In this document: piece after piece, positions 1 through 15,209 of the stretch
How positions within the stretch are numbered: the first letter of the stretch is position 1
Layout: every line of letters begins with the position of its first letter
Assembly (NCBI GenBank): GCA_018396705.1
Contig: JAGTQZ010000003.1
Span: forward strand, 1 to 64,000
Length of the DNA: 64,000 nt
From: Candidatus Bathyarchaeota archaeon
Lineage (GTDB): Archaea > Thermoproteota > Bathyarchaeia > Bathyarchaeales > Bathycorpusculaceae
Direction of reading: 5' to 3'
Made by a program: the position numbers and the translations under genes
Notes under the pieces: model-generated
What the model saw: the letters and a program-made list of their open reading frames with translations, nothing else
Database searches by the model: none
Told to the model about the DNA's origin: nothing

Positions 1-1305
1 CATAGGCTTAGGTGGATTCTGATTTTTGAGGCTTTATTCGCCGGAGTTTATGTCTCATTGACAAGGGGCTTATTTGTCATTTATTTAGCTTCGCTGAGGC
101 AGAGCGTTGAAGAAATATCTTTTGTGGTGCTTGCCTCGTCCACGGCGTCATTTGTTGTTGGCGTCTTAATTTATAAAAAGCCATCATTCATCACGAGGGA
201 CGTGAAACTTAAGCTTGTTTTCTTCCATGCTCTGGAGAGGGTTATTTGGCTCTTAATGCCTTTAACTGCAACTGGTTTGCTTATTTTTTTGTTATACGCA
301 ACATGCCTTGTCTCTTCATCGATCATAAGCATATTCCTGGCCTTTGCCATTTACGGCTCTTTAGACGAAGATATGATAAGAGATGTCACTGCCAAGAGAT
401 CTGCTGCAAACGGCATTTCAAGCATTTTAGGTTTTGCTCTGGGAGTGTTCCTATTGGCGTTCCTAACGTCAGAAGCCAAGTTCAGCTACATTTTTCCGTT
501 TGGAGCACTTTTGGGCCTTATCTCCACGTTGCTATTGGGGTTTCTTGACCTATCCCACTTGGAAGGAAAACAATTTCCAAAAGCGACAGAACAGCCCGAA
601 AAAATTTTCTCAACCTCCACATTCTTTGTAATTTTAATGGCTTCAAGTAACCTAATGGGGTTAATATGGGCGCCTTACGTTATGAATTATCTTGGTGGGC
701 CTGATTTTTTGGCGGCATCAATGAACCTTGCTGGAACCATCTCAAGTGTTGCTGCTTCGCTCTATTGGAGAAAAAGAACATTCAAAACACTTCGCATTAG
801 CCTCGCATTAAACACTCTTGGACCAGCCATCATTTTGGCAACACCCTGGCCCCATATACACCCAGCCATTAACGTTTACACCTCCTTCACGTTTACTGGA
901 GCAAACTTTTTGGGAACATTCCTTTTCGCGAGATATAACAAGTGGTTTGGAGCTGTAAAGTCAAGTGTTTTATTGGCAGTATTAGGAAGCTTGGCACAAC
1001 TGACTGCTGCCTCCATGGGAATGTTTGCGAAACAAAACTTTATGGTAGGCTTTTCTATGGCTTTAGCCGTGAAAGCCGCCGCAACAGTCATAGCTTTAAT
1101 CATCATTCCAGAAGTGGCTGTCGTTCCCGAAGACGTTGCCAGGACATATTCACAAGTTTTATACAACACCAGCTTAACCGGATATAGAATGAGCGTTGAA
1201 ATTTCAAAAGAAACAATACTGACAACGTTAAGACTATTGGCCCTTTCATTAGTCATAGTGGCGCTTTATTTAATTTATCGCGTTCTATGGATATTAATAG
1301 GTTAG
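1..1305 (+). CDS. Major facilitator-like membrane protein, 5' end outside window
   Basis: The reading frame is open to the left edge, so the true start lies before the window; the first internal TTG is at 58. The visible part (about 434 residues) is almost wholly hydrophobic, with roughly ten or eleven predicted membrane segments and a polar central loop near residues 180-200, which is the usual shape of an MFS permease with two six-helix halves. No substrate signature is recognisable. The gene ends 60 bp before the next membrane protein on the same strand, which has its own TATA-like promoter. Family assignment rests on topology rather than on a named motif, so other polytopic transporter families remain possible. 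Confidence 0.65.
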   Translation, partial: HRLRWILIFEALFAGVYVSLTRGLFVIYLASLRQSVEEISFVVLASSTASFVVGVLIYKKPSFITRDVKLKLVFFHALERVIWLLMPLTATGLLIFLLYATCLVSSSIISIFLAFAIYGSLDEDMIRDVTAKRSAANGISSILGFALGVFLLAFLTSEAKFSYIFPFGALLGLISTLLLGFLDLSHLEGKQFPKATEQPEKIFSTSTFFVILMASSNLMGLIWAPYVMNYLGGPDFLAASMNLAGTISSVAASLYWRKRTFKTLRISLALNTLGPAIILATPWPHIHPAINVYTSFTFTGANFLGTFLFARYNKWFGAVKSSVLLAVLGSLAQLTAASMGMFAKQNFMVGFSMALAVKAAATVIALIIIPEVAVVPEDVARTYSQVLYNTSLTGYRMSVEISKETILTTLRLLALSLVIVALYLIYRVLWILIG

Positions 1306-1329
1306 AGACACATTTAATAAGCGAACAAA

Positions 1330-1338
1330 ATTTATAAT
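1330..1338 (+). promoter_or_regulatory. TATA box upstream of the 1366 gene
   Basis: An A/T-rich TTTATAAT element is centred about 30 bp before the TTG at 1366. With archaeal spacing (TATA about 25 bp before the transcript start) the mRNA would be leaderless or nearly so, which supports the TTG as the start. Confidence 0.5.
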
Positions 1339-1365
1339 ACAACGCTCTAAAATGAGGCTCCTTCC

Positions 1366-2052
1366 TTGGCGGACAAAAACCTCTTTGAAATACTGCAAGA
1401 AATACTTGCGCAAGTAGCTGCAGAAACCATACATCTTCTTCCTAAAATATTCATAGCCTTAATTGTTATCGTCATAACCCTCTTGATAATTAAGGTTTTG
1501 AACATAGGTTTTCGAAAACTATTGAAACTCGCAAAATTGGACGCCATGTTTAAACAGTTCACCGGCTTCACATTACCTTTCTCGCTTGATGGCCTCATAA
1601 TATTCCTAGCCGACCTAGGCATAGTCTTAATCACCATTTATGGCCTAGTTAACCTTTTCCTAGGCCCGCAATATCTGCAGTTAATAAGCAACGGAATATA
1701 TTACGGTGCCCGCGTTGTAAGCATAGTCGTTATTGCAATTATCATATTCGCGATTTTCAATATGCTCATCAGCAAAGTTAAAGTTGATACCCGCCTGAGA
1801 AGCTACGCAATGGTCATAGTCCTAATATTAATTACCGCGATGTTGATCGATATAACAGCGCTGAGCGACCAAGTAAAAAACGCGTTAACATTAGGGTTAT
1901 CCATAGGAGTAGGAATAGCCATAGGTGTTTTCGCAATATGGTTTTTCTTCCATGAATACCTCGACAAAAGTTTTAAAATTGAAAGCTTTACCAAACCATC
2001 AGAGGAAACTCAAGTCCCAAAAGACGTGAAAAGTGATCCATGGAACAGCTAA
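1366..2052 (+). CDS. Polytopic membrane protein with MscS-type TM-helix repeats
   Basis: This 228-residue protein starts at TTG. It has about five hydrophobic helices (near residues 25-45, 65-95, 100-130, 145-165, 170-195) and a short polar C-terminal tail. The arrangement resembles the conserved TM-helix repeat proteins related to small-conductance mechanosensitive channels, but the cytoplasmic MscS beta domain is absent, so a channel role is only a guess. It is preceded by its own TATA box and is monocistronic as far as can be seen. Its last 54 bp may overlap a short opposite-strand frame. Confidence 0.7.
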   Translation: MADKNLFEILQEILAQVAAETIHLLPKIFIALIVIVITLLIIKVLNIGFRKLLKLAKLDAMFKQFTGFTLPFSLDGLIIFLADLGIVLITIYGLVNLFLGPQYLQLISNGIYYGARVVSIVVIAIIIFAIFNMLISKVKVDTRLRSYAMVIVLILITAMLIDITALSDQVKNALTLGLSIGVGIAIGVFAIWFFFHEYLDKSFKIESFTKPSEETQVPKDVKSDPWNS

Positions 2053-2223
2053 ATCTTTTGAGAAAAATGCGGGTAAAGGCGTTGATAACATGCTTGTTGC
2101 TAATGAAGAAAGAGCAAGGCCCATACAAAAAGCGTAGGGATTTTCAATTTTCAGTTTTTCCTTAATCCTTATCCCATTCAACAATTTCGACGCTAGAGAT
2201 AACCCCCGATAGGTGAAGTCCAA
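1999..2223 (-). CDS. Possible small hypothetical protein downstream of the nucleotidyltransferase
   Basis: A 74-codon frame begins at a TTG 18 bp after the stop of the nucleotidyltransferase/phosphotransferase gene on the same strand, so it could be the last gene of that operon. The composition is protein-like (charged N-terminus, hydrophobic middle), but no family is recognised and the 3' end runs antisense into the 1366-2052 gene. It could equally be chance. Without it, 2053-2241 would be a 189 bp intergenic gap. Confidence 0.3.
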   Translation of the reverse strand: MDFTYRGLSLASKLLNGIRIKEKLKIENPYAFCMGLALSSLATSMLSTPLPAFFSKDLAVPWITFHVFWDLSFL

Positions 2224-2241
2224 AGTTTTCTCAATTCTTAC

Positions 2242-3612
2242 CTATAAAGTTGTTCTCTTATCTAAAGCATGTAAATGCACAGAAGCCCTATAAGCGTATA
2301 CTACAGCGGTTAGGGCTGAGTGCACCATTATTGCTAACAGCGAATGGAGTGGCACTCCTAAGAGGACGCCTAAAAGGATGTAGATGTTGTAGATGTTCCT
2401 TCTGCCCGCGATTCTCCTGAAGGCGCGTTCGAACTTTCCATAAACGTCTAAGCTTATGCCGGTTGCTCTGCTGAATTGGTCATAGCAAAATCTGTAGAAT
2501 GCAATAAACATGATGGATATGGAAGCATATATTAGGGGAAGCAGGCCCTCACTTTGGCTTAAGAACAATGCAAGGGCTATCAACCATGAAAATTCGTATA
2601 ACATGTCAAATGGATGCTCCATAAGCCCAAGTTTTGTTGAGCATCCACGTATTCGCGCTAACTTTCCATCTAAGCCGTCGATAATACCAACTACAAATGT
2701 TAAGAGGGATCCTAAACCCAAATGGCCAGACAAAAATAGGTATGTAACAAACCATGCAAGAATGTTTGTGAGTATGGTTAGTCTATTTGGGGTTATGAAC
2801 CCCCACTCCGAAACGTAATAGAGAATGGCGTTTTCTATGGGTCGGTTAAAGTAATGAGCCACAAAATCCGAAGCTCCACGCCTTTTCTGCGAGTTCTCGA
2901 CGATTAACCTTTTCGCGCGATGAAAATCATCTTTTGTGTCCACATCCACCCACCAGTGCCCGGTTACATCAACAACTTGTGCGTCTCCGTTCTGTGCGGC
3001 GATTCTAATGCAGTCTGAAAGCTCTGACATCCCTTTGCTGGCAGCCTGTCTTGCATATTCAAAAATTTTTGGGGAACAGAGGAAAAGCCCAGTATCGATT
3101 GCAACGTTTGATTGGTTAAATTTTTTACCTATGTCGAAGATTAAGCCATCTTTTTCAAGAACTTTTGTGTGGTCCTCTGGCACTTTCTCAACAGCCAAAA
3201 CAACAGCACTGTCAATTTTGCTTCTAACAAGTTTTTTAGGAATTTCTGGATCGAAAACATGATCGCTCATGCAGAGCAAGAAATTATGTTTAAAAACTTC
3301 TTCTGCGGCCAGTAAGGAGTAAAGGTTGCCCTTTTTCCAGTTTTCAACTACTATATAATAAATTTCAAGTCCTGCATAATTGTCGCCGATTTTCTGACGA
3401 ACCAGATCTCCTTTATAACCAATAGCTATCCATACTTTCTGTACTCCAGCTTCCTTAAGGCCTCGAAGAACCCTACCAATCAAAGGTACCCCTGCAACTT
3501 GAAGAAGGGGCTTCGACTCTGCGCAATCTCTAAGCCTACTTCCCTCTCCCGCAGCTAAGACCAAAGCTGAAACTGAAAGTCGCTCCCCTTCTCCCAATAA
3601 TAAATCCTCCAA
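2242..3612 (-). CDS. Bifunctional NTP transferase / CDP-alcohol phosphotransferase
   Basis: The 456-residue protein joins two enzymes. Residues about 15-245 form a sugar-phosphate or alcohol-phosphate nucleotidyltransferase, with the signature LAAGEGSRL near residue 20 and SKPLL after it. Residues about 260-450 form a membrane CDP-alcohol phosphotransferase domain with several hydrophobic helices and the DGKLAR core near residue 311. The same order is known from archaeal and thermophilic IPCT-DIPPS enzymes that make CDP-inositol and then di-myo-inositol phosphate, and from related polar-lipid enzymes; the substrate cannot be read from sequence. The second half of the CDP-alcohol motif is altered: after the conserved Gly come L-M-E-H-P-F-D, one residue shorter than the usual spacing and with Glu in place of the first catalytic Asp. 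Activity of that domain is therefore uncertain. Confidence 0.85.
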   Translation of the reverse strand: MEDLLLGEGERLSVSALVLAAGEGSRLRDCAESKPLLQVAGVPLIGRVLRGLKEAGVQKVWIAIGYKGDLVRQKIGDNYAGLEIYYIVVENWKKGNLYSLLAAEEVFKHNFLLCMSDHVFDPEIPKKLVRSKIDSAVVLAVEKVPEDHTKVLEKDGLIFDIGKKFNQSNVAIDTGLFLCSPKIFEYARQAASKGMSELSDCIRIAAQNGDAQVVDVTGHWWVDVDTKDDFHRAKRLIVENSQKRRGASDFVAHYFNRPIENAILYYVSEWGFITPNRLTILTNILAWFVTYLFLSGHLGLGSLLTFVVGIIDGLDGKLARIRGCSTKLGLMEHPFDMLYEFSWLIALALFLSQSEGLLPLIYASISIMFIAFYRFCYDQFSRATGISLDVYGKFERAFRRIAGRRNIYNIYILLGVLLGVPLHSLLAIMVHSALTAVVYAYRASVHLHALDKRTTL

Positions 3613-3878
3613 TGATAGCGAGGCATTAAATTATGCGCAAATTCACTTTAAAACTCTTGCCATTTTCATAGATTCAGACAATAAAGATGTTTGAACAATA
3701 CTATAAATGCCTTCAACTTTTTAAAGAAATCTATAGAATTTCTGTTAGTAACGTCTAAAGGCATTCCTTGTCTTTTTATAGACCAACTTTTATTAGAACT
3801 TAGGGTTTTTGGCGTATCAGTTCTTAAGCTCTACGTCAAGACCCGGCCTGATAAGCTAATTAAAGTCCCACTGCTAAG

Positions 3879-4049
3879 TCAAATTGAACGGCGCATTTTG
3901 TGTCCTTTTTTCCAATACTCTATGAGTTCGAGTATAACGTCTTCCAAGCTCCTGGGCTTTCCATTTTCTGATTCAAGGGCTCCTCTAATTTTTACAAGTT
4001 CCTCTCTGGTGCTTTCATAAATCTGTATTGATGTTCTTTTTCCAGGCAA
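3879..4049 (-). CDS. Small ribbon-helix-helix type protein (56 aa)
   Basis: A 56-codon gene starts at TTG 4049, 10 bp after an AAGAGG Shine-Dalgarno-like stretch. The protein has a short basic strand (KRTSIQIYESTREEL) followed by two amphipathic helices (LVKIRGALES; SLEDVILELIEYWKK), the pattern of MetJ/Arc/CopG ribbon-helix-helix DNA-binding proteins and of VapB-type antitoxins. It is transcribed divergently from the 4171 gene, and the intervening 120 bp contain repeated TATGGA/TCCATA half-sites that could be its operator. No toxin partner follows it. Its role as an autorepressor or element-maintenance regulator is inferred. Confidence 0.7.
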   Translation of the reverse strand: MPGKRTSIQIYESTREELVKIRGALESENGKPRSLEDVILELIEYWKKGHKMRRSI

Positions 4050-4080
4050 TGTTACACAGCCTCTTAATTTTTGATGCTAT

Positions 4081-4153
4081 TATGGAATGCATATATTTAA
4101 TGTTTTCCATAGAAAAGTTTATATGTTCTTATGTAATCTATGGATAACATGGA
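4081..4153. promoter_or_regulatory. Divergent promoter region with repeated TATGGA half-sites
   Basis: Between the small ribbon-helix-helix gene and the 4171 gene, the hexamer TATGGA or its complement occurs at 4081-4086, 4106-4111 and 4139-4144. The last two extend to a perfect 8 bp inverted pair, TCCATAGA at 4106-4113 and TCTATGGA at 4137-4144, with centres 31 bp apart, about three helical turns. A/T-rich TATA candidates for both directions (AAATATAT near 4092-4099, TTTATAT near 4118-4124) lie among them. Repressor binding here would affect both genes. Confidence 0.45.
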
Positions 4154-4170
4154 TTACATGGACGTGAGAT

Positions 4171-4728
4171 GTGTTGAGAGAAACAGAGAACAAATTTAAA
4201 ACTACTGTCGCAAAGCTCCATGGCACGCAAGATTACAATGTAATTTCCTCGCTAAACATGAACCAGCTTAAATTGTCTATTGCTTTGGAGCTTAGGTCGG
4301 AGGGATTTAACAAGGTATTTCTTGATAAAGTGTTTGAAGCCTTTGGGAGGAAAGTGAGGGTTCATGTGTTTGCTGAGGATGAGCTTGGGGAATGTTTGGC
4401 GGTTATATGTGTTAATAAGGTTGGCGGACTTGATCCGGTTGGATTGTCAGATGCTGTTGAAGCTGTTCAGAGGGCTTTGGGAGAGGACGGTGATGTTGCT
4501 ATAGCAATACCCATAAGCCTGCTTGACAAGGCTGGGGGAATCTTTGGCATTACCCGTAGAATGTTTCTTGTCGACGGAGAGCTGAGGGTTTGGACGCATC
4601 TGCGCGATAACGCCTACACAGAAATGATTAAGCGTATAATGTTAAGCCAGCGCCAAGACAGCGCGTCCGACGACAAGGATGACATACAACAAAGTTGTGG
4701 ATGGGAAGGCTTAGGCTACGTCACTTAG
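4171..4728 (+). CDS. Hypothetical protein of accessory region
   Basis: This 185-residue protein starts at GTG and I do not recognise its family. Residues about 35-125 look like a compact alpha/beta fold with alternating hydrophobic strands (VRVHVFAED, CLAVICVNK, VAIAIPISLL); the last 25 residues are polar and probably disordered. It is followed after 12 bp by the PD-(D/E)XK-like gene, so the two are probably co-transcribed from the promoter at about 4118. The strand arrangement would be compatible with a degenerate nuclease-like fold, but no catalytic triad is visible. Confidence 0.65.
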   Translation: MLRETENKFKTTVAKLHGTQDYNVISSLNMNQLKLSIALELRSEGFNKVFLDKVFEAFGRKVRVHVFAEDELGECLAVICVNKVGGLDPVGLSDAVEAVQRALGEDGDVAIAIPISLLDKAGGIFGITRRMFLVDGELRVWTHLRDNAYTEMIKRIMLSQRQDSASDDKDDIQQSCGWEGLGYVT

Positions 4729-4740
4729 GAGGACGAAACA

Positions 4741-5532
4741 TTGAGTCGACTGGACGAAACTCCCAAACTCTTAGCCTTGCAGGATCAAAAGCTATCCTTC
4801 GAACAATTAAGAATTTGGCTGGATAATATTTGCAACAACGTAGCCATAAAGTATGGACTTCTAACGCCTTCTGGAAAGCCTAGAAAAGCCTTCGTGCTGG
4901 ACACGCTGCTAAAATATTCTTGTCGAGGCTGCATCAGGAAAGCTTTACAACATCCAGAGGCTGACGACAGGGCGGACGCGCTTTACGTTCAGAACCATTT
5001 GTTAGCTGTAGGGCTACTAGTTGAAGCTCTGCGGCAAACGTTTGAGGCAGGATGCTTAAACCTCGAGATTGAGCAAGAGGTGGACGGCGTTTTCGGCAGG
5101 CCTGACGTAACTGTTAAACCTACAATGACAGGCGTTTTAGTTGAGATAGAAGATCTCGAAATCATTATTGAGGTGAAAACTGGCAGAGGGTTCTCGTACA
5201 GCCAGCTCATTAGATACTGGCTGGAAAGGCCAAACTCCATTTGCGTCATTTGGCGGGTAATACCAAACCAGGTTTTAGTGATAGATCCAAACAAGCATCA
5301 CTCCATACTTGAGCTTTGTTTAATCGCGGCGATAAGGCGTGGCATAGATATCCTCAACAGCAAAAATGAGGAATGTAGACATAACCCCACACGAAGCATG
5401 GGAACCTGTATCGTTGACGCGCAGAATGTTTTGGACTCTTACTTTGATTCCATGCAAAAATCCCTCCCGAAAATCGTGAGAACAGTCCGACAAATAGTGC
5501 AGCATCATTTACATGCAAAACCAGTTAGATAG
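4741..5532 (+). CDS. PD-(D/E)XK nuclease-like protein
   Basis: The 263-residue protein carries GRPDV near residue 119 followed, after a short beta hairpin, by IIIEVKTG near residue 140, which matches the D...ExK metal site of the PD-(D/E)XK superfamily (RecB/Cas4-like). A following SYSQLIRYW segment matches the Q-x-x-x-Y type helix seen in Cas4/RecB nucleases. The N-terminus (about 1-110) is helical with two cysteines. No cysteine set for an Fe-S cluster is evident. It sits second in a two-gene operon, upstream of a serine recombinase, consistent with a mobile-element nuclease; its target is unknown. Confidence 0.7.
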   Translation: MSRLDETPKLLALQDQKLSFEQLRIWLDNICNNVAIKYGLLTPSGKPRKAFVLDTLLKYSCRGCIRKALQHPEADDRADALYVQNHLLAVGLLVEALRQTFEAGCLNLEIEQEVDGVFGRPDVTVKPTMTGVLVEIEDLEIIIEVKTGRGFSYSQLIRYWLERPNSICVIWRVIPNQVLVIDPNKHHSILELCLIAAIRRGIDILNSKNEECRHNPTRSMGTCIVDAQNVLDSYFDSMQKSLPKIVRTVRQIVQHHLHAKPVR

Positions 5533-5620
5533 AATCCTGTGCGACGAGAGGCGAGAGATTGAGACCAGCACCTGAGGATGTTGCCACATTTTTGCACGAA
5601 TGGACTCATGGAGGAGTAAT

Positions 5621-6547
5621 ATGAACAAAGAGGATGCAAGAAGACCTCTGTTTGCAGCAATATATGCGAGGACATCATCCGCGAATCAGAAGTGCAACTA
5701 TAGCATTGAGGGACAGGTTGCCCAGTGCTGGGATTACTGCCGTCGGAGGAACTGGATTGTTCGCTATGTTTTCATTGATGAGTGCCAGAGTGGTGGAACC
5801 GTTGAGAGGCCGAAGTTCCAGCTTATGCTTGAGAAGGCAGAGAAAGGCGAAATAGACGTCATAGTCTTCTGGAAGCTCGATCGATTCTGCAGGTCATTGG
5901 TGGACTTAGTTAACATTGAACGTATGCTGAGAAGCTGGGGTGTTGGATTATGTAGCGTCACAGAGTTCATCGACACAACAACGCCTGTTGGAAGGTTCAA
6001 TTTTAGGAATATAGCGTCTGTTGCCGAGCTGGAGAGGGAGCTTATTGGCGAGCGAGCGAGGCTCGGCCTACACGCCCTAGCGCGGGAGCTAAAGTGGCCT
6101 AACCCGCATCCACCTCTAGGCTACGATAAAGCGGAGGATGGTAGGCTAGTGGTAAACGCTGAAGAGGCCGAGCTTGTGCGAAGGATATTCAAGATGTATC
6201 TTGAGGAAGAATCCATGGCGCAGGTTGCCTACCGATTGAACGCGGAAGGTGTTAAAACTAAGAGGGGTGGCGAGTGGACTGCGAGGACTGTGAGAGACAT
6301 ATTAACAAACGGGCTATACGTGGGGAATTATAGAGTTGCCGGCATAAACCAGCATGTTGCTGAATACGCTATAATCGATAAGGACCTGTTTGATAGAGCA
6401 CAACATGTTAGGCTAAGGTTTAGAAGAGGAGAGGGGAAGAGGCCTCCCATGCCCCCGGATAGAAAGGCTGCGAAGGTCGAGAGGTTCATCCAGAAGGTTC
6501 GTGAGACTCTTAGAAAAGTTGGAGTTCTAGGTCTTGGAGGTGATTAG
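5621..6547 (+). CDS. Serine recombinase (resolvase/invertase family), element-encoded
   Basis: The start at ATG 5621 is chosen because GGAGG lies 6 bp upstream; an in-frame ATG at 5600 has no such site. The 308-residue product begins with the catalytic YARTSS motif (nucleophilic Ser), then a resolvase domain to about residue 145 (FWKLDRFCRS, R-rich E helix ELERELIGERARLGL), and a 'recombinase' domain (PPLGYDKAEDGRLVVNAEEA onward). It is shorter than most large serine recombinases and lacks a C-terminal zinc ribbon. It overlaps the Shine-Dalgarno site of the downstream TFB gene, so the two are probably translationally coupled. It would catalyse integration, excision or inversion of the element. 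Confidence 0.92.
   Translation: MNKEDARRPLFAAIYARTSSANQKCNYSIEGQVAQCWDYCRRRNWIVRYVFIDECQSGGTVERPKFQLMLEKAEKGEIDVIVFWKLDRFCRSLVDLVNIERMLRSWGVGLCSVTEFIDTTTPVGRFNFRNIASVAELERELIGERARLGLHALARELKWPNPHPPLGYDKAEDGRLVVNAEEAELVRRIFKMYLEEESMAQVAYRLNAEGVKTKRGGEWTARTVRDILTNGLYVGNYRVAGINQHVAEYAIIDKDLFDRAQHVRLRFRRGEGKRPPMPPDRKAAKVERFIQKVRETLRKVGVLGLGGD
6536..6544 (+). promoter_or_regulatory. Strong ribosome binding site of the TFB gene
   Basis: GGAGGTGAT is a near-perfect anti-Shine-Dalgarno match 6 bp before ATG 6551 and lies inside the last codons of the recombinase gene, fixing the TFB start and suggesting coupled translation. Confidence 0.8.
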
Positions 6548-6550
6548 AGA

Positions 6551-7378
6551 ATGCAGACGCAAGTCGTGGTGAAAGAGCAGGTAGACAAGTATAAGTGCCC
6601 GTACTGTGGGGCCAGCGCCATACAGTTTATTGAGAAGCACCCCGTTTGCGCTGATTGCGGTCTCGTAATAGACCAAGCAGGCCAGGTAGAAAATGATCAG
6701 CCTAGAAGAGGCAGGATGAGGAAGAGGGGCGAGCAGCACATTCTGCCAGACTGCATGGACATAAAGGCCTTCATCGATTTTCTCGGGTTTTCGGATTCTG
6801 TGGAAGAAAACATGGCACGGACTATAGCGTCAATAATTAATGTGGCGGGAAAGCTGGACTTAGGCGATGATGTTGTAGAGACTGCCATAGATATCTATGA
6901 GGACGTTGCTAAGAAGTGTACGTTTAAGGGTAAGAACATTAAGGTTCTGAGTGCGGCGATAGTGTATGCGGCCAGTAAGAGGACTGGAAAGGCGTGCGGA
7001 TTACGCGAAATAGCCAGAACCACTAGGATTAAATCAAATAGGATCTTCAAGTGCTACAGGTTCATCCTAGATAAACTTGGATATAATGCAAAGTACCCGT
7101 CAATCGAGGGGTATGTTGCACGCATCTGCGATAGGTTAGCACTAAATGCAAGCGTAACAGATATAGCAAAGAAGATAGCTGTGACCGCAAAAGATTGTGT
7201 GCAAGTGAAAGCTGCTCCCTCAAGCTTAGCTGCAGCGTCTATTTACATATCTTCGACAATAATCGGTAATAGGATAACCCAAAGGGAAATAGCAAACGTT
7301 GCAGGAATAACGGATGCAACCGTTAGATCCACATATAAGGATATTATCAAAAAACTGCAGGTTGTCTTAATGATATAG
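6551..7378 (+). CDS. tfb: Transcription initiation factor IIB (TFB), divergent, element-encoded
   Basis: The N-terminus has a zinc ribbon (CPYC near residue 15 and CADC near residue 32). Two cyclin-like repeats follow, about residues 80-170 and 175-270, with signatures such as AAIVYAASKRTG and SLAAASIYISS. This architecture is that of archaeal TFB, which bridges TBP-DNA and RNA polymerase. At 275 residues it is short: the usual B-reader/linker between ribbon and core is reduced to a basic segment (RRGRMRKR). It lies between two serine recombinase genes and is translationally coupled to the first, so it is probably carried by the element and may redirect host RNA polymerase to element promoters. 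That role is inferred. Confidence 0.9.
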   Translation: MQTQVVVKEQVDKYKCPYCGASAIQFIEKHPVCADCGLVIDQAGQVENDQPRRGRMRKRGEQHILPDCMDIKAFIDFLGFSDSVEENMARTIASIINVAGKLDLGDDVVETAIDIYEDVAKKCTFKGKNIKVLSAAIVYAASKRTGKACGLREIARTTRIKSNRIFKCYRFILDKLGYNAKYPSIEGYVARICDRLALNASVTDIAKKIAVTAKDCVQVKAAPSSLAAASIYISSTIIGNRITQREIANVAGITDATVRSTYKDIIKKLQVVLMI

Positions 7379-7381
7379 AAA

Positions 7382-8608
7382 TTACCCCCAGGTGGGGGAG
7401 GCACTATAATCAAATAGAGAGGTTTGAACGCTTCTTTTGGGTTGTTGTTCCGTCCGTTGCTTTGATGATTGCTGGGTTTGTGGAATAAGATTTGTTGACT
7501 GGATCCTGTTTTGCTCGCTGAGTTTTTCCAGCATTCGTTTTGTCGGTATCCTAAATTGAGCATTGCACTTATTACATTTATAGACTTGCTGCAGGGTTGA
7601 ATTCTCAAATCTAGAACCATTTCTAGTCAGAATGCCACCGCATCTCCTATGATGAAGCTCTGCAACTTCATCTATGAAATCTAAAAGCGAGACATCATAT
7701 ACTTGTGTTAGTTGTGCTAATGTACTGCTTTTCTGCTGTACCGAGCCATTTATATTGCTACTGTTATCGTGCATAAAAGACCTACATTTTTCAAATGTTG
7801 CATCATCAATATAGCGTAAGGACCCGTCAATTACAGTTTCACCTAAAAATGAGGGGTGACCGACGTATACTGGATCAGAGAGCACTCGCTTAATCACATC
7901 CCTACTTAGGGGCCTATTTAGCACCGCATTATATTTATTGGTGATTTCCTTTGCTACCCTGCTATACGACTTATACTTAATGAAGAGATCAAAAATGTCT
8001 TGAATTATTGGGCCATATCCTGGAATTTTCTCTATCCAGCCATCGCCACTTCTGCGATAGCCTAGCGGAATGGGTTTATTCCATTTCTTTTTTTTGAAAT
8101 TCTGGATCTTGCTAGCATTAGCACGCTCAGCCCTGCGTTTGTTTTCACTCTCTGCCACATAGCTTTCCATGACGAAAAGCATTATGTCGGCTAGATCCTT
8201 GGTGCCATAGGTTCTGTCCGGCGTGCGGATCAAGCCACCATCCTTGCAGAATCTAAGGAAGAAGAATAGCGAATCTTCGCACTCTCTTCCTATTCTGTCT
8301 ACATGTGTAACCCAGAGCTCATCAATTTCCTTCTTCTCCCGCAGTTCCATTATTTCCTTAATTTTCCTGTTGTCAAAGTCCTCTCCGCTCACACCGGGAT
8401 CAATAAACCAGTAGATTTTGGATGGCTTATGCTTCTCCTTAATAGCTTCAAGCCTCTCTTTTTGAACCTCGAGACTTAACCCCTCTTTAGCCTGTTTACT
8501 CGTGCTAACTCTCAGGTACGCGGCTACACGAGGCCCATTGCCGCCAAACTCCTCAACCCAAAACTCCTTACCAAATGGATTTGCCTGATAAAACTTATCG
8601 ATCGTCAA
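7382..8608 (-). CDS. Large serine recombinase
   Basis: The catalytic region YLRVSTSKQ lies near residue 35 of the shorter form, followed by a resolvase domain, a recombinase domain (PLGYRRSGDGW onward) and a cysteine-containing C-terminal ribbon (RRCGG and CNKCNAQF). The open frame extends to 8842, but its first 78 codons cross five GTATGAT repeats and translate to a repetitive hydrophobic stretch, so I place the start at TTG 8608; the exact start is uncertain. The gene converges on the TFB gene with only 3 bp between them. It is only distantly similar to the 5621 recombinase and probably belongs to a separate insertion event. Confidence 0.85.
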   Translation of the reverse strand: MTIDKFYQANPFGKEFWVEEFGGNGPRVAAYLRVSTSKQAKEGLSLEVQKERLEAIKEKHKPSKIYWFIDPGVSGEDFDNRKIKEIMELREKKEIDELWVTHVDRIGRECEDSLFFFLRFCKDGGLIRTPDRTYGTKDLADIMLFVMESYVAESENKRRAERANASKIQNFKKKKWNKPIPLGYRRSGDGWIEKIPGYGPIIQDIFDLFIKYKSYSRVAKEITNKYNAVLNRPLSRDVIKRVLSDPVYVGHPSFLGETVIDGSLRYIDDATFEKCRSFMHDNSSNINGSVQQKSSTLAQLTQVYDVSLLDFIDEVAELHHRRCGGILTRNGSRFENSTLQQVYKCNKCNAQFRIPTKRMLEKLSEQNRIQSTNLIPQTQQSSKQRTEQQPKRSVQTSLFDYSASPTWG

Positions 8609-8628
8609 CTGAAAGGCTAGGAACAGTA

Positions 8629-8791
8629 GGTATGATGTCGGTGCGATACAACAAGTGGTAATCTCATGAAAGTATGATGTTAGAGTGACAAAAAGAAGCA
8701 AGTATGATGTTAGTGCGACTGCCATAATTAAATTGCGACAGCTTTTTAAGGAACGTATGATATGAACAGCCAAGGCAGTCCGTATCATACG
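8629..8791. repeat. Cluster of GTATGAT repeats upstream of the serine recombinase
   Basis: The core GTATGAT occurs directly at 8630-8636, 8672-8678 and 8702-8708, the last two within a longer shared sequence AGTATGATGTTAG. A fourth copy at 8755-8761 forms an inverted pair (CGTATGAT / ATCATACG) with 8784-8791. The array covers the region where the promoter of the leftward recombinase should lie. It could be a repressor operator, a recombinase accessory site or iterons of a plasmid origin; the sequence alone does not decide. Confidence 0.6.
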
Positions 8792-8849
8792 AAACTTAAA
8801 AATCCTTCGAAAATTTATTAAAGCCGACATTGTTCTGCTCATCCCAGAT

Positions 8850-8916
8850 TTACTGTTGTCTAATATCAGTATAACTGAAGAAAAGATATAAGTGTTACTG
8901 TTGTCTAATATCTGTA
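8850..8916 (+). promoter_or_regulatory. Two 22-bp dyad operators flanking a TATA box
   Basis: TTACTGTTGTCTAATATC followed by AGTA or TGTA occurs at 8850-8871 and 8895-8916, 45 bp apart. The first copy is itself a dyad (TACTG at 8851-8855 with CAGTA at 8867-8871). A TATA-like AGATATAA lies between them at about 8884-8891, so the second copy would cover the transcript start of the winged-helix gene at 8935. This geometry suggests autorepression. Confidence 0.6.
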
Positions 8917-8934
8917 CAATAGGTGATGTGAAAG

Positions 8935-9648
8935 GTGTTCGACGTTATAAGTCTTGATGATGTGGATCGAAAGATCATTTTAGCGATAGGTGATGGAGAA
9001 GTTAGTGTTTCAGAGATGATTAAAAAGGCTGGTTTGTCCCGGCAGTCTGCTTACACACATTTGGAGAAGCTTATTGGGCTCAAATTAATTTTACAAAGAA
9101 GGGGAGGTTTTCCAAGGACTCGTATGCTAAGGCTTTCCGAAGAGGGATTAAAAGTTTATGAAGAACTTAGAAGGGTTGCGTCTGCAGGGCAAACCGGATC
9201 CGCTGGACTAGATGTATTCAGAACGTTGCTTAGGGAACGTTGTAAAACGCTTAAATACATGGCTCCATTATTGGAAGAATCTTTCGCTAAGGCTTACGCT
9301 CAATATTTGGCGGCCTCTGCAACATTGGGCTTCATCATCCCCATGTCCAAAGAAATTTTGCAGAAAATAGAAGGCTATGCCGAATCCCTTGTCGAGGGAA
9401 TGGACATCGCTATTTACCCAAAGCCACAATCAGCTACAGAAGAAGAAGCCGTTGGAAAAGCGGCTCTGGAACTTTTAGAACGCCTATTTAAGGATAAAGA
9501 ATTTAGAGAAAGAGTTGCTCAAACCGATAAATTGACCTTCATCCTCAGTTTAGATTTAAGCAAAATTAACGAACCTGCACAAGTAAAGGGCCAAATATTA
9601 TTCTGGGCGTTGGTCTACGAAGGCTTACATAAGGAAGGCAAAATCTAA
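8935..9648 (+). CDS. Winged-helix transcriptional regulator
   Basis: The 237-residue protein starts at GTG 8935. Residues about 5-75 form a MarR/ArsR-like winged helix (VSVSEMIKKAGLSRQSAYTH as helix-turn-helix, then a basic wing RRGGFPRTRMLRL). Residues 95-235 are helical and of unknown family, perhaps for dimerisation or ligand sensing. Its promoter carries two copies of a 22 bp dyad, so it probably regulates itself. It lies between the serine recombinase and the integrase and is presumably the element's control gene. Confidence 0.75.
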   Translation: MFDVISLDDVDRKIILAIGDGEVSVSEMIKKAGLSRQSAYTHLEKLIGLKLILQRRGGFPRTRMLRLSEEGLKVYEELRRVASAGQTGSAGLDVFRTLLRERCKTLKYMAPLLEESFAKAYAQYLAASATLGFIIPMSKEILQKIEGYAESLVEGMDIAIYPKPQSATEEEAVGKAALELLERLFKDKEFRERVAQTDKLTFILSLDLSKINEPAQVKGQILFWALVYEGLHKEGKI

Positions 9649-9755
9649 TACTCTTCAGTAACCTACTACATTTATGACCATCCGTCGCTGTAACTTCGTT
9701 ATGCTTTCATACCCACATTTTTTAAGTTTAGACGGTCTAAGCTCTTGGTGTCAAT

Positions 9756-9908
9756 GTGGCAAGCGACGAGTACGTTCTAGTAAAAAGAACAGACCTTGAA
9801 AGGATGCTCATGGAAATTCAGGGGATCAAAGCTATTGTTGCTGAAGAGGTTCGCCTTTCCCGCCTAGAAAAGAATAAACCATCTGCTCAAGCCTCTCCAA
9901 GCGCTTGA
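9756..9908 (+). CDS. Small coiled-coil protein (50 aa), overlapping integrase 3' end
   Basis: A 50-codon frame starts at GTG 9756, about 26 bp after a TTTAAGTTTA TATA-like element, so the mRNA would be leaderless. The product (MASDEYVLVKRTDLERMLME at its start) looks like the small helical proteins common in archaeal mobile elements. Its last 77 bp are antisense to the integrase gene. The promoter spacing and protein-like composition favour a real gene, but there is no homology evidence here. Confidence 0.45.
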   Translation: MASDEYVLVKRTDLERMLMEIQGIKAIVAEEVRLSRLEKNKPSAQASPSA

Positions 9909-11064
9909 GGATATCCTCCAACCTTTCCACCCTTTTTTCTTCCGTTTCAAATGCTAGCCTTGCGTCTAGAATGTAGCCGCAGAAGCTGCATCGGACGCTG
10001 TCGGGCGAATTTCTTTCTCTACATCGTGGACATTCCACAGCCCTTAATACACCGTCCGTCTCGTCCTTCTTCCTTATTCCATGCAGTTCCAGCACGGCAT
10101 CCTCAATGTCTCTTGCTGAGAAGTGGACGTACCGCCTTGCCATGCGGGATCCCTGAACCCATCCGGCGAAGTGCTCAAGCCTCGATTCCGTAAATACCTT
10201 AGCGAGGTTTGTGAGTGTTGTGTGGCGGAAAAGGTACGGCCAAACATCTTTTTTCACACCAGCCTTTTCCGCCAATTTTTTAATGAGCTTCCTCAGGTAA
10301 TAATAGCTTACCTTACCATTCTTCGAGTTGTTTCCAAGCGCAACCCACAATGGGGCGTTGACGTCGCCTTTCAGCGGGTGCTTCTGCAGCCATTCCAGCA
10401 AGGGTTTGAAGCTTGCGACAAGCGGTATGCGCTTTAACCCTGTTTTGCCAACAGCTGTTATGAGGCAGTATTGGCTGTTGAAGGATACGCTTCCAACCTT
10501 CATGGACAACAGTTCACTAGGCCTGAGGGCTGCCTCGAAAAGGATCGATATCATGGCTCTGTCGCGTTCGTTCTCAGCAGCAGCCATCATCGCCTTCACC
10601 TCATCAATCGTTAGCAGCGATTCAGGCCTAACCCTTGAATCCTTATCGTCTCTGCTTCTAACGCTGAACCACGCTACTTCAGGAGGTACAGGCGTTTTCT
10701 TAGCACAACTCCCACATTTAGCATATTGAACAACCTTCCTCACAACAAGCCTCAAGTCATCCTTAGTCGAAGTTTTATACGGCTGACTCTCTATCCACGC
10801 AATAACCCGTTCAACGCTCTTCCTCGAGGCGTGGCGAGGATCAAATGGGCATGCCTTAAATAGGGTGCACAGGTGATTGGCATACTTCGCAATCCTACCT
10901 TTAGATAGACCTAAGGCTTGCAAGTGATCGATGAAGTCCAACAACAGCTCCGAATATGGCAGGCTCCTCAGCCTTCGCTTAGCACTCTCAACCCTCTTAT
11001 GGTAATCATGTATATCGTACATCTCAACTACAAAGGAGCTTGTAGACTTTAAAATCGGGGGCAT
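9832..11064 (-). CDS. Tyrosine recombinase / integrase with C-terminal zinc ribbon
   Basis: The 410-residue protein has a SAM-like N-terminal core-binding domain (about 20-120) and a tyrosine recombinase catalytic domain (about 150-330). Catalytic elements are visible: ALRPSELL (Arg I), VGKTGLKRIPL (beta-hairpin Lys), PYLFRHTTLTN (Tyr in place of the first His, Arg II, as in other archaeal integrases), GWVQGSRMARRYVH (Trp/His box and nucleophilic Tyr). Residues about 345-370 form a zinc ribbon (CPRC...CSFC). Its start lies 30 bp from the 3' end of tRNA-Gly, the usual position for an integrase that uses the tRNA as attachment site; the element should extend to lower coordinates. No second copy of the tRNA 3' end was found. 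Confidence 0.92.
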   Translation of the reverse strand: MPPILKSTSSFVVEMYDIHDYHKRVESAKRRLRSLPYSELLLDFIDHLQALGLSKGRIAKYANHLCTLFKACPFDPRHASRKSVERVIAWIESQPYKTSTKDDLRLVVRKVVQYAKCGSCAKKTPVPPEVAWFSVRSRDDKDSRVRPESLLTIDEVKAMMAAAENERDRAMISILFEAALRPSELLSMKVGSVSFNSQYCLITAVGKTGLKRIPLVASFKPLLEWLQKHPLKGDVNAPLWVALGNNSKNGKVSYYYLRKLIKKLAEKAGVKKDVWPYLFRHTTLTNLAKVFTESRLEHFAGWVQGSRMARRYVHFSARDIEDAVLELHGIRKKDETDGVLRAVECPRCRERNSPDSVRCSFCGYILDARLAFETEEKRVERLEDILKRLERLEQMVYSFLGGKGEPLQQQ

Positions 11065-11093
11065 GGAAAGCGCACCAGAACTAGAGGTACTGG

Positions 11094-11188
11094 TGCGGCC
11101 GCCGGGATTTGAACCCGGGATCGCAGGCTTGGAAGGCTTCCACCGCTGTTTCGGCGACTGTGTCCTAACCAGACTAGACGACGGCCGC
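11094..11188 (-). tRNA. tRNA-Gly (anticodon TCC) with intron in the anticodon stem
   Basis: Read on the minus strand, the acceptor arms GCGGCCG and CGGCCGC pair, the D arm is GTCT/GGAC, and the T arm is CCGGG-TTCAAAT-CCCGG. After removing 20 nt (11138-11157), the anticodon arm is CAGGC-CTTCCAA-GCCTG with anticodon TCC. The 3' CCA is encoded (11091-11093). The mature length is 75 nt including the discriminator A. The intron interrupts the 5' strand of the anticodon stem between positions 29 and 30. The integrase gene starts 30 bp beyond the 3' end. Confidence 0.92.
11138..11157 (-). other. Non-canonical tRNA intron (20 nt, position 29/30)
   Basis: The transcript of this segment, TCGCCGAAACAGCGGTGGAA, can fold as a six-pair hairpin (TCGCCG with CGGTGG, two wobbles) closed by AAACAG, giving a relaxed bulge-helix-bulge at the exon borders. 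Removing it is the only way to obtain a complete glycine anticodon arm. Confidence 0.8.
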
Positions 11189-11242: not shown

Positions 11243-11962
11243 TTATTCGCTTTTCGGTTTCAACAGTCGTTTTTCATGGGCTGGTTTCGGCTTAAAGCTT
11301 CCACGAAGTTTGGGTTGGGCTGCCCTGGCCTTTTCAATGTTTTTTAGTCTTGCATAGAGTTTTGCTATTTTTGTCTTAGAAGGTTTTCGTTTCGTGAAAA
11401 CCCGCGCTGGCGGCGGTGTGAATGGGTTCCGCTGTTGTTGGTCAGCTTTTTTCTTCTCTCTTTCAGGTTTGGCTACTTGCCGGGTTCTTATTCTCTGGAA
11501 GACCACGTAAGCCTCTTTTAAGTTTACCTCCACAACTTTCCATCCAGCATCAAGCCAGGCCTTTGCGTGGGCCGTGTCGGGCGTGTTCTTCCACCATTCT
11601 GTTGAACGATAAGCCCCCAAGGGCAGATTATCTCCGATTATGCCGTCTATTTGGGCGAATGAAAGCCTAACTGTGTCGGTGAAGGTTGCCCTAAAACGAA
11701 GGTAACGTGTTAGAGCCTCGTACTTGTTTTTGGTTCTTGGAGAAACTGTTTTCCTTGCACAGTGCAGGCATAACGGCCTTCCAGCGTCGCTTGTGGCAAC
11801 GTCTGGAACCATACAGTCGAGGCAGAAAGTTTTGCCGCAGCGTTGACAACGCTTAAGATAGCTTATGGGAAGCACTCGCCCGCAAAGCTTGCATTCATCT
11901 TTAAGAGGCAATTTGAACCACTCTTTTGTAAGGTGTATGTAAGAGTTTAGATTACGCCTCAT
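11243..11962 (-). CDS. Zinc-finger protein with DUF7662-like domain
   Basis: The 239-residue protein begins with a cysteine-rich module (about 22-70: CKLC, CQRC, CLDC, CLHC) resembling B-box/FYVE-type treble-clef fingers. Residues about 80-160 (YEALTRYL, LSFAQIDGIIGDNLP, WWKNTPDTAHAKAWLDAGW) resemble the DUF7662 domain found in bacterial and archaeal proteins of unknown function. The C-terminal 75 residues are lysine/arginine-rich and likely disordered, which suggests nucleic-acid binding. It is just beyond the tRNA-Gly, outside the presumed element. Function unknown. Confidence 0.75.
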   Translation of the reverse strand: MRRNLNSYIHLTKEWFKLPLKDECKLCGRVLPISYLKRCQRCGKTFCLDCMVPDVATSDAGRPLCLHCARKTVSPRTKNKYEALTRYLRFRATFTDTVRLSFAQIDGIIGDNLPLGAYRSTEWWKNTPDTAHAKAWLDAGWKVVEVNLKEAYVVFQRIRTRQVAKPEREKKKADQQQRNPFTPPPARVFTKRKPSKTKIAKLYARLKNIEKARAAQPKLRGSFKPKPAHEKRLLKPKSE

Positions 11963-13662: not shown

Positions 13663-15144
13663 TTAGCCCTTAACCACCGCCAGCGGAACGAGTCTGGCAA
13701 CTTTTGTGGCTATTCCAACTTTATGGCTTACGTCCGCAACGATGTCCACGTTTTTGTATGCTGGATCCGCTTCTTCCGCTAATACCACGGCGCTTGCCGC
13801 CCGAACGGCTATACCCCTCTGTTCTAGGCTTCGTTTAACGTCTCCACCGAAGAACCTTCGTTTAGCTGCAGCGCGACTCAACATTCTTCCAGCGCCATGA
13901 GCTGTAGAGCCAAAGCTTATCTCCATAGCCTTTGGGGTACCCACTAAAAGCCACGAGCTTGTTCCCATACTTCCCGGGATTATTACGGGCTGACCCACGC
14001 TTCTATAGTCCGCTGGAATTTCTGGATGCCCAGGTGGAAAAGCTCTTGTGGCACCTTTCCGGTGAACCCAAACCTTCTTTTGTTCACCGTTAACCTTGTG
14101 AATTTCGATTTTGGCAATATTGTGAGCAACGTCATACAACAGTTTTAAGCCAAACTTTTCCGGATCTTCTTTGAAAACTTGCTGAAAACTTTGCCTAACC
14201 CAGTGCATTATGGCTTGACGGTTCACAAAGGCGTAGTTTACGGCGCAAGCCATGGCCTCATAATAGTCTTCAGCCTCATTGCTGGTTCCAGGGGCGCATG
14301 CCAACTCCCGGTCGGGAAGGACAATTTTGTATTTGTGGACGGCGCGTTCCATAACCCTCAAATAATCCGAGCAGATTTGGTGGCCGAAACCCCTTGAACC
14401 ACAGTGAATCATTACAGTCACTTGGCCTTCATGTTCTATTCCAAAGGCTTTGGCGGTTCTTGGGTCGTAGATTTTGTCAACTTTTTGGATTTCAAGGAAA
14501 TGATTTCCAGAGCCCAAAGTGCCTATTTGTGGCAGTCCACGGTTTTTAGCGTTTGTTGAAACCTTGTCTGGATTAGCATTCTTCATGCACCCCCTCTCTT
14601 CACAGTGTTCAGCATCCTCGTCCCATCCGAGTCCTTGGTCTATGGCCCATTGAACACCTTCCATAGCAAGCCTGTCCAAATCATGGATTGTCACTTTGAA
14701 GTCTTTACGTCGGCTTCCTAAACCACATGGAACATTTTCGAAAATGGCGTTTGCCAACTGAGCAAGCTTTGGCCTGATGTCCTGTTCTGAAAGGTTTGTT
14801 ATCAAGAGACGGACACCACAGTTAATGTCGTAGCCTACACCACCCGGACTTATGACGCCTTCCTCATAGTCTGTCGCAGCTACGCCGCCAATTGGAAAAC
14901 CGTACCCCTCATGACCGTCGGGCAACGTTATGGAGTACTTGTATATTCCGGGTAAATGGGCGACATTAGCGCACTGTTCAAGGGTTCTATCTGTCTGCAT
15001 TTTCTCTAATAATTCCTTGTTAGCAAAAATAATCCCCGGGACTTTCATTCCAGGCTTATATTTTGGAATGCGCCAAGTGTAGTCGTCAATTTTTTCGAGA
15101 GGAACTTTTTCAGACGGTGGTCGACCTTCTCCTTCTTCACCCAT
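13663..15144 (-). CDS. rtcB: tRNA-splicing ligase RtcB
   Basis: The product (about 493 residues) is full length for RtcB, the GTP-dependent RNA ligase that joins tRNA exons after intron removal. Key parts are visible: GGVGYDINCGVRLL (metal-binding Asp and Cys), HCGSRGFGHQ, SMGTSSW, and HGAGRMLSR, which holds the guanylylated His. No intein is present. I prefer ATG 15144, which has GGTGA 5 bp upstream, over the in-frame GTG at 15153. The gene for its activator archease is 2.5 kb away, and a tRNA with an intron lies 2.5 kb to the left. Confidence 0.97.
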   Translation of the reverse strand: MGEEGEGRPPSEKVPLEKIDDYTWRIPKYKPGMKVPGIIFANKELLEKMQTDRTLEQCANVAHLPGIYKYSITLPDGHEGYGFPIGGVAATDYEEGVISPGGVGYDINCGVRLLITNLSEQDIRPKLAQLANAIFENVPCGLGSRRKDFKVTIHDLDRLAMEGVQWAIDQGLGWDEDAEHCEERGCMKNANPDKVSTNAKNRGLPQIGTLGSGNHFLEIQKVDKIYDPRTAKAFGIEHEGQVTVMIHCGSRGFGHQICSDYLRVMERAVHKYKIVLPDRELACAPGTSNEAEDYYEAMACAVNYAFVNRQAIMHWVRQSFQQVFKEDPEKFGLKLLYDVAHNIAKIEIHKVNGEQKKVWVHRKGATRAFPPGHPEIPADYRSVGQPVIIPGSMGTSSWLLVGTPKAMEISFGSTAHGAGRMLSRAAAKRRFFGGDVKRSLEQRGIAVRAASAVVLAEEADPAYKNVDIVADVSHKVGIATKVARLVPLAVVKG

Positions 15145-15209
15145 TAGTTTCACCCTAACCGATTAAGAGAGAAAGCCAAATATAAGGAATATCTGCGCAT
15201 ACCAACAAA

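Follow-up and report, generated by a model that had tools for sequence, protein, structure and literature searches.

Archaeal iMGEs that integrate into tRNA genes carry a tyrosine integrase beside the tRNA gene and are bounded by an att repeat of the tRNA 3′ end (PMC6563490, PMC8371274). Integrated elements of Thaumarchaeota that target tRNAs and carry CRISPR arrays have already been described (PMC6563490), and intron-containing tRNA genes are known integration targets (PMC8371274). Archaeal serine recombinases, according to the latter review, have never been fully investigated. Here, we analyse a stretch of 64,000 nucleotides from a Candidatus Bathyarchaeota archaeon (the window), which spans positions 1–64000 of contig C3 of the source genome (G000), the contig starting at window position 1. 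An element at a tRNA gene in this window has a tyrosine integrase, an att repeat, a CRISPR array and an intron-containing target in common with the described iMGEs, but adds two serine recombinases (SR1 and SR2), a TFB and a nuclease (table 1).

For these additional genes, the closest comparisons lie outside the iMGEs. The pairing of different large serine recombinases within a mobile unit has a counterpart in staphylococcal SCC (CcrA/CcrB) and XisF, and in NCBIfam SR1 and SR2 are most closely related to the Ccr and XisF families. The two proteins differ in falling far below the CcrA and CcrB family cut-offs (SR1 reaches 129 bits for CcrB, cut-off 900, and 92 bits for CcrA, cut-off 700, while SR2 scores lower than SR1), in the absence of a zinc ribbon from SR1, which abuts the TFB gene, and in that their genes converge instead of forming one operon. 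The nuclease has the D, ExK and QxxxY residues of Cas4/RecB-like nucleases and fold matches to Cas4, RecE and Hjc, but lies outside a cas operon and is replaced in other hosts by a DUF2130 or Cas4-like protein. The TFB has the zinc ribbon and two cyclin repeats of archaeal TFB, but the residues that canonically follow the zinc ribbon cannot be made out by eye and the sequence is fast-evolving.

Table 1. Features of the tRNA-Gly element and its flank. Coordinates are window positions unless a contig is named.
Feature	Position	Strand	Remarks
Probable cargo: truncated MFS transporter, small membrane protein, nucleotidyltransferase/CDP-alcohol transferase	1-3612	.	synteny break
Protein without family match	4171-4728	+	C-terminus recurs at tRNA-Asp locus, C7:1-501
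Predicted PD-(D/E)XK nuclease	4741-5532	+	D122, E144xK146, Q155xxxY159
SR1 serine recombinase	5600-6547	+	resolvase and recombinase domains, without zinc ribbon
Divergent TFB	6551-7378	+	zinc ribbon and two cyclin repeats
SR2 serine recombinase with zinc-ribbon region	7382-8842	-	Resolvase 2.1e-18
Three direct repeats of ~22 nt, core GTATGATGT	8625-8718	.	5′ part of SR2
Two 25-nt direct repeats	8850-8874, 8895-8919		upstream of HTH regulator gene
Winged-HTH regulator	8935-9648	+	HTH_20 3.5e-5
Tyrosine recombinase (integrase), C-terminal zinc ribbon	9832-11064	-	Phage_integrase 1.5e-18; adjoins tRNA 3′ end
17-nt arm repeat GCACCAGAACTAGAGGT	11072-11088	+	beside integrase; also left of attR core, C9:2199-2215
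23-bp att core GGTTCAAATCCCGGCGGCCGCAC	11093-11115	-	copy at C9:2213-2235 (attR)
tRNA-Gly(UCC), ~20-nt intron at position 29/30	11091-11188	-	Rfam tRNA 44.3 bits; integration target, 3′ end = attL
DUF7662 gene	11243-11962	-	conserved chromosomal flank upstream of tRNA-Gly

The identity of the target requires removal of its intron. ARAGORN assigns the gene to tRNA-Arg(CCG), which is rejected as an artefact of the 20-nt intron; the spliced sequence is a regular tRNA-Gly(UCC), in line with the tRNA-Gly of the original prediction. An intron of about 20 nt after ACAG is common to the genus and has the same position in G018 and G049, and the same-locus homologues without it in G006, G017 and G021 read ACAGGC-CTTCCAA-GCCTGY. 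A gene for the RtcB tRNA-splicing ligase (13663–15153), syntenic in relatives, lies near this tRNA gene. Three related integrases adjoin other tRNA genes in the source genome, namely tRNA-Asp (C7:1-2500, L114), tRNA-His (C8, L113) and tRNA-Thr (C2:301112, L112). At the tRNA-Asp locus, C7:1-501 encodes, beside the integrase, a near-identical C-terminus of the 4171–4728 protein and a truncated nuclease (N-half), and this element is without SR1, TFB and SR2.

Gene order at the tRNA-Gly locus is not the same in all relatives, and four of them are without the insert. In G001 and G003, of the same genus, MscS, a small gene and rsmH come straight after DUF7662 and tRNA-Gly, and in G018 and G006 it is rsmH that comes after them. 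The MscS and rsmH genes of the source genome lie on contig C9 from position 4376 on, behind a copy of the att core and its arm. The left boundary, not found in the original prediction, is indeed absent from the window, where no att repeat occurs beyond ordinary tRNA similarity; it is located on C9, where a 23-bp copy of the tRNA-Gly 3′ end, the direct repeat that had been anticipated, is accompanied by the arm repeat. The orientation of attR fits one element running left from the tRNA off C3 into C9, and the joined half sites would form an attP whose core is flanked by inverted arms, an arrangement expected of integrase arm sites. Judged from the sequence evidence of empty sites, attL and attR, and cargo without close orthologues in the genus, this is a real insertion, as had been proposed.

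The ends of the element thus lie on two contigs with an unassembled gap, and we infer one continuous element in which C3 and C9 are joined directly. It would comprise window positions 1–11092 and C9:1-2212, a minimum of about 13.3 kb plus the gap. At the C3 end, the nucleotidyltransferase protein (2242–3612) has only weak matches, in G001–G003. The C9 part contains an integrase-like remnant and, near attR (within L044 1–1600), the C-terminus of cas1, cas2 (PF09827 2e-20) and a CRISPR array with 17 repeats, which enclose 16 spacers of 36–39 nt. The N-terminus of cas1 was not found on another contig end and the assembly has no other cas1, so the gap would hold at least the rest of this gene. Between attR and the ancestral MscS, C9 (L044) also carries a nitroreductase and an MFS gene (2339–4344). 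The nitroreductase is without a close homologue in same-genus genomes, and the segment is possibly a separate acquisition.

Pfam matches bear out the predicted set of SR1, opposite-strand SR2, TFB and a tyrosine integrase abutting the tRNA gene. SR1 matches Resolvase (1.1e-35) and Recombinase (1.8e-20); its 315 aa end after the recombinase domain, 3 bp upstream of the TFB gene, and it falls short of a full large serine recombinase, in which a zinc ribbon and coiled coil follow that domain. It retains YARTSS and the DRxxR motif, the catalytic residues of the resolvase domain. In SR2, residues R111, S113, Q117, Q127, S152, R183 and R186 are invariant across ten homologues, and the alignment shows cysteine pairs. 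By these residues, both proteins are members of the serine recombinase superfamily and are predicted to be catalytically intact. In a search of viral contigs, only general serine recombinases resembled SR1, none of them a closer relative, and the nuclease had no relative there.

SR2 begins with a hydrophobic extension of about 100 aa, although its start codon is uncertain: the extension overlaps the ~22-nt DNA repeats, which are possible binding sites, and GC3 gives no decision. Hydropathy suggests that SR2 may be membrane-tethered, which would be unexpected in an ordinary recombinase. Among SR2 proteins (the window SR2 and its homologues in L122–L127 and L129), most start with a hydrophobic extension that contains one or two TM-like segments; in haloarchaeal SR2 a conserved PLLxGLLRRD-like stretch comes next.

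The TFB matches TFIIB (PF00382) at 2e-23, with a weak zinc ribbon (6e-4), and scores 144.5 bits against the NCBIfam TFB subfamily (cut-off 384), below the threshold for a canonical full-length TFB. The protein encoded at 4741–5532 has no match in Pfam, and is read as a PD-(D/E)XK nuclease, the originally predicted assignment, because D122, E144-x-K146 and Q155...Y159 are invariant among its homologues and because of the folds that its predicted structure matches. The AlphaFold model (pLDDT 79) best matches restriction-endonuclease-like folds, Hjc/Holliday junction resolvases and Cas4, and also RecE; VIA-align gives moderate Z scores of up to 9.2, nearly all of them to restriction-endonuclease-like structures, and Foldseek alone returns no significant PDB match. 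Of two regulators proposed for the locus, the winged-HTH protein stands, and the 25-nt repeats upstream of its gene are possible operators; the product of 4171–4728 matched no family in the family searches.

The gene order nuclease → SR1 → TFB ← SR2 (the cassette) recurs in Bathyarchaeota, Thaumarchaeota and haloarchaea. Within Bathyarchaeia, G249, G132 and G131 have the same order, with SR1 homologues 52–60% identical; those of other archaea are 45–70% identical. Scanning GTDB genomes extended the list to haloarchaea, to one MAG each of Thaumarchaeota and Hadesarchaea, to a lake euryarchaeote and to a contig classed as Poribacteria, which may be mis-binned. Such cassettes are rare, near full-length SR1 being present in four of 256 genomes of the class (G000, G131, G132 and G249, with a fragment in G052); in a sample of 398 genomes of the phylum, it scored in G000 only. 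Among plasmids searched, the full cassette occurs in one record only, from the haloarchaeon Haloarcula marina. Halorubrum aidingense is another cultured host of the cassette. In Halosimplex pelagicum (L130 7302–9738), a transposase-like gene has inserted into SR1 and split it.

Altogether SR1 is present in 15 genomes, including G000 and the Haloarcula plasmid, and is followed directly by TFB in 13 of them. SR2 converges tail to tail on TFB in 10 of the 11 genomes with a TFB and enough contig; loci L119 and L129 depart from this pattern, lacking TFB or having SR2 at a distance. Over 11 loci, the identity matrices of SR1, TFB and SR2 are congruent (Mantel r 0.81, 0.84 and 0.87; p<=0.0002); the three genes have therefore stayed together. 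The slot upstream of SR1 is occupied in most loci by a PD-(D/E)XK-type nuclease, drawn from at least three families (the window's own, DUF2130 and Cas4-like), and that one family can replace another in this slot suggests that the position requires a nuclease.

The association extends to the tRNA gene. In G131 and G132 the cassette lies beside tRNA-Pro with an integrase directly downstream (in G132 it matches PF00589 at 9.6e-5, below the curated cut-off, and that of G131 is its homologue), and in the Thaumarchaeota MAG a tRNA-Leu overlaps the integrase. These three genomes and G000 share the order tRNA/integrase/SR2/TFB/SR1/nuclease, and in at least G000 and G131 a regulator-like gene separates the integrase from SR2. 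This shared order argues for one composite element family over repeated insertion, and it is possible that the cassette entered tRNA–integrase elements once, long ago. For the G131 tRNA-Pro element, the sole attR candidate within 53 kb, a 15-mer inside SR1, was rejected. Downstream of the G131 cassette (G131:C17:30700-36900, L110/L151), genes for DGQHR/DndB-like, DndC-like and DndD-like proteins and a cysteine desulfurase look, when read by eye, like a Dnd phosphorothioation set. Other cassettes neighbour Eco57I-type R-M and PLD genes (L123), SMC and a ResIII helicase (L127) or a C5 methyltransferase (L119), and the G000 element has its CRISPR array with cas1/cas2; such contexts support an involvement in the transfer or reshaping of defence cargo.

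What the cassette does, and how it came to the tRNA, can be read in several ways. The original prediction offered successive insertions into one hot spot or a composite element. Under the former, the cassette would be a serine-recombinase transposon or island in its own right, inserted into a tRNA-Gly element that was already there. Large serine recombinase families are usually mobility genes, chromosomes in which no tRNA was detected beside it, as well as the haloarchaeal plasmid, also carry the cassette, and the tRNA-Asp sister element has the end of the 4171 gene and the N-half of the nuclease with no SR1, TFB or SR2. Against this, four genomes share cassette order and orientation relative to the tRNA and integrase, neither flanking repeats nor an empty cassette site has been found (a search for direct or inverted repeats bounding the cassette in G000, G131 and G132 gave nothing convincing), and SR1, TFB, SR2 and nuclease recur together with congruent divergence. 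We regard nested insertion as unlikely and take the composite element as the better reading. The cassette might instead be cargo with a function of its own, such as a system for defence or DNA processing that employs recombinase folds and moves no DNA, and to this we would give slightly more credence, while still doubting it. The PD-(D/E)XK-type nuclease upstream in most loci, the Dnd-like, R-M, CRISPR and helicase genes close by, the possible membrane segment on SR2 and the unusual conservation of SR1 all fit such a function; both recombinases, however, keep their catalytic serines and arginines, and no PADLOC model matches the nuclease, SR1, TFB or SR2, the window's proteins giving only weak HTH matches, although a novel system could escape such models.

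Two further readings are improbable. SR1 and SR2 could form an inversion switch with TFB as its regulated output or regulator, as SR2 and its neighbour have opposite orientations relative to TFB in Halorubrum vacuolatum (L123 10637–14318) and Natronosalvus (L124 10649–14096), the segment comprising SR2 and an adjacent gene of 649 and 551 aa, respectively. No convincing inverted repeats bound this segment, however, with only a weak 19-nt pair present, and the two loci have diverged, so a single ancient inversion would be enough. It is equally hard to credit that the assembly is chimeric, with the attR of C9 derived from another strain or element and the left part of the window being ordinary chromosome. 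Ends on separate contigs and the missing cas1 N-terminus would agree with a chimera, but the break in synteny is in keeping with the att core, both ends carry the arm repeat, and the nucleotidyltransferase of the left part is matched only weakly by same-genus genomes.

The reading that we favour, at roughly even probability, is an integrative element with a conserved Ccr-like cassette, in which a pair of serine recombinases with its own TFB and nuclease would rearrange defence cargo. The element entered the 3′ end of tRNA-Gly(UCC), as attL, attR and the empty sites show, at a 23-bp core with what would be inverted arm sites, and the position of the integrase suggests that the element's own tyrosine recombinase carried out the integration. 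Comparison among archaea shows that nuclease → SR1 → TFB ← SR2 travels as a unit, which would most likely be a second, Ccr-like recombination module. By analogy with CcrA/CcrB, SR1, without a zinc ribbon, would build the synapse together with SR2, the TFB that the element brings along would drive or target transcription once in a new host, and the nuclease may process DNA ends or junctions. The cassette would then excise, shuffle or rearrange defence cargo, which in the source genome includes the CRISPR array and cas1/cas2.

A bolder proposal, which we think rather unlikely, is that the four genes form an undescribed archaea-wide system in which TFB partners a zinc-ribbon-less ‘split’ recombinase and aims it, for example, at promoters, alongside a further serine recombinase, which may be membrane-tethered, and an interchangeable nuclease. 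Open-access literature on serine recombinases with TFB/TFIIB in archaea held nothing describing the cassette, and an earlier mention elsewhere is possible.

The locus thus presents a cassette that crosses phyla with a fixed gene order, recombinases that appear catalytically intact and a dedicated TFB, in a group of enzymes that is almost uncharacterised in archaea. It gives a concrete example in which a basal transcription factor travels with recombinases, and links an element integrated at a tRNA gene with defence cargo, CRISPR included. The presence of the cassette in cultured haloarchaea (Halorubrum, Natronosalvus, Halosimplex and Haloarcula) makes it experimentally accessible.
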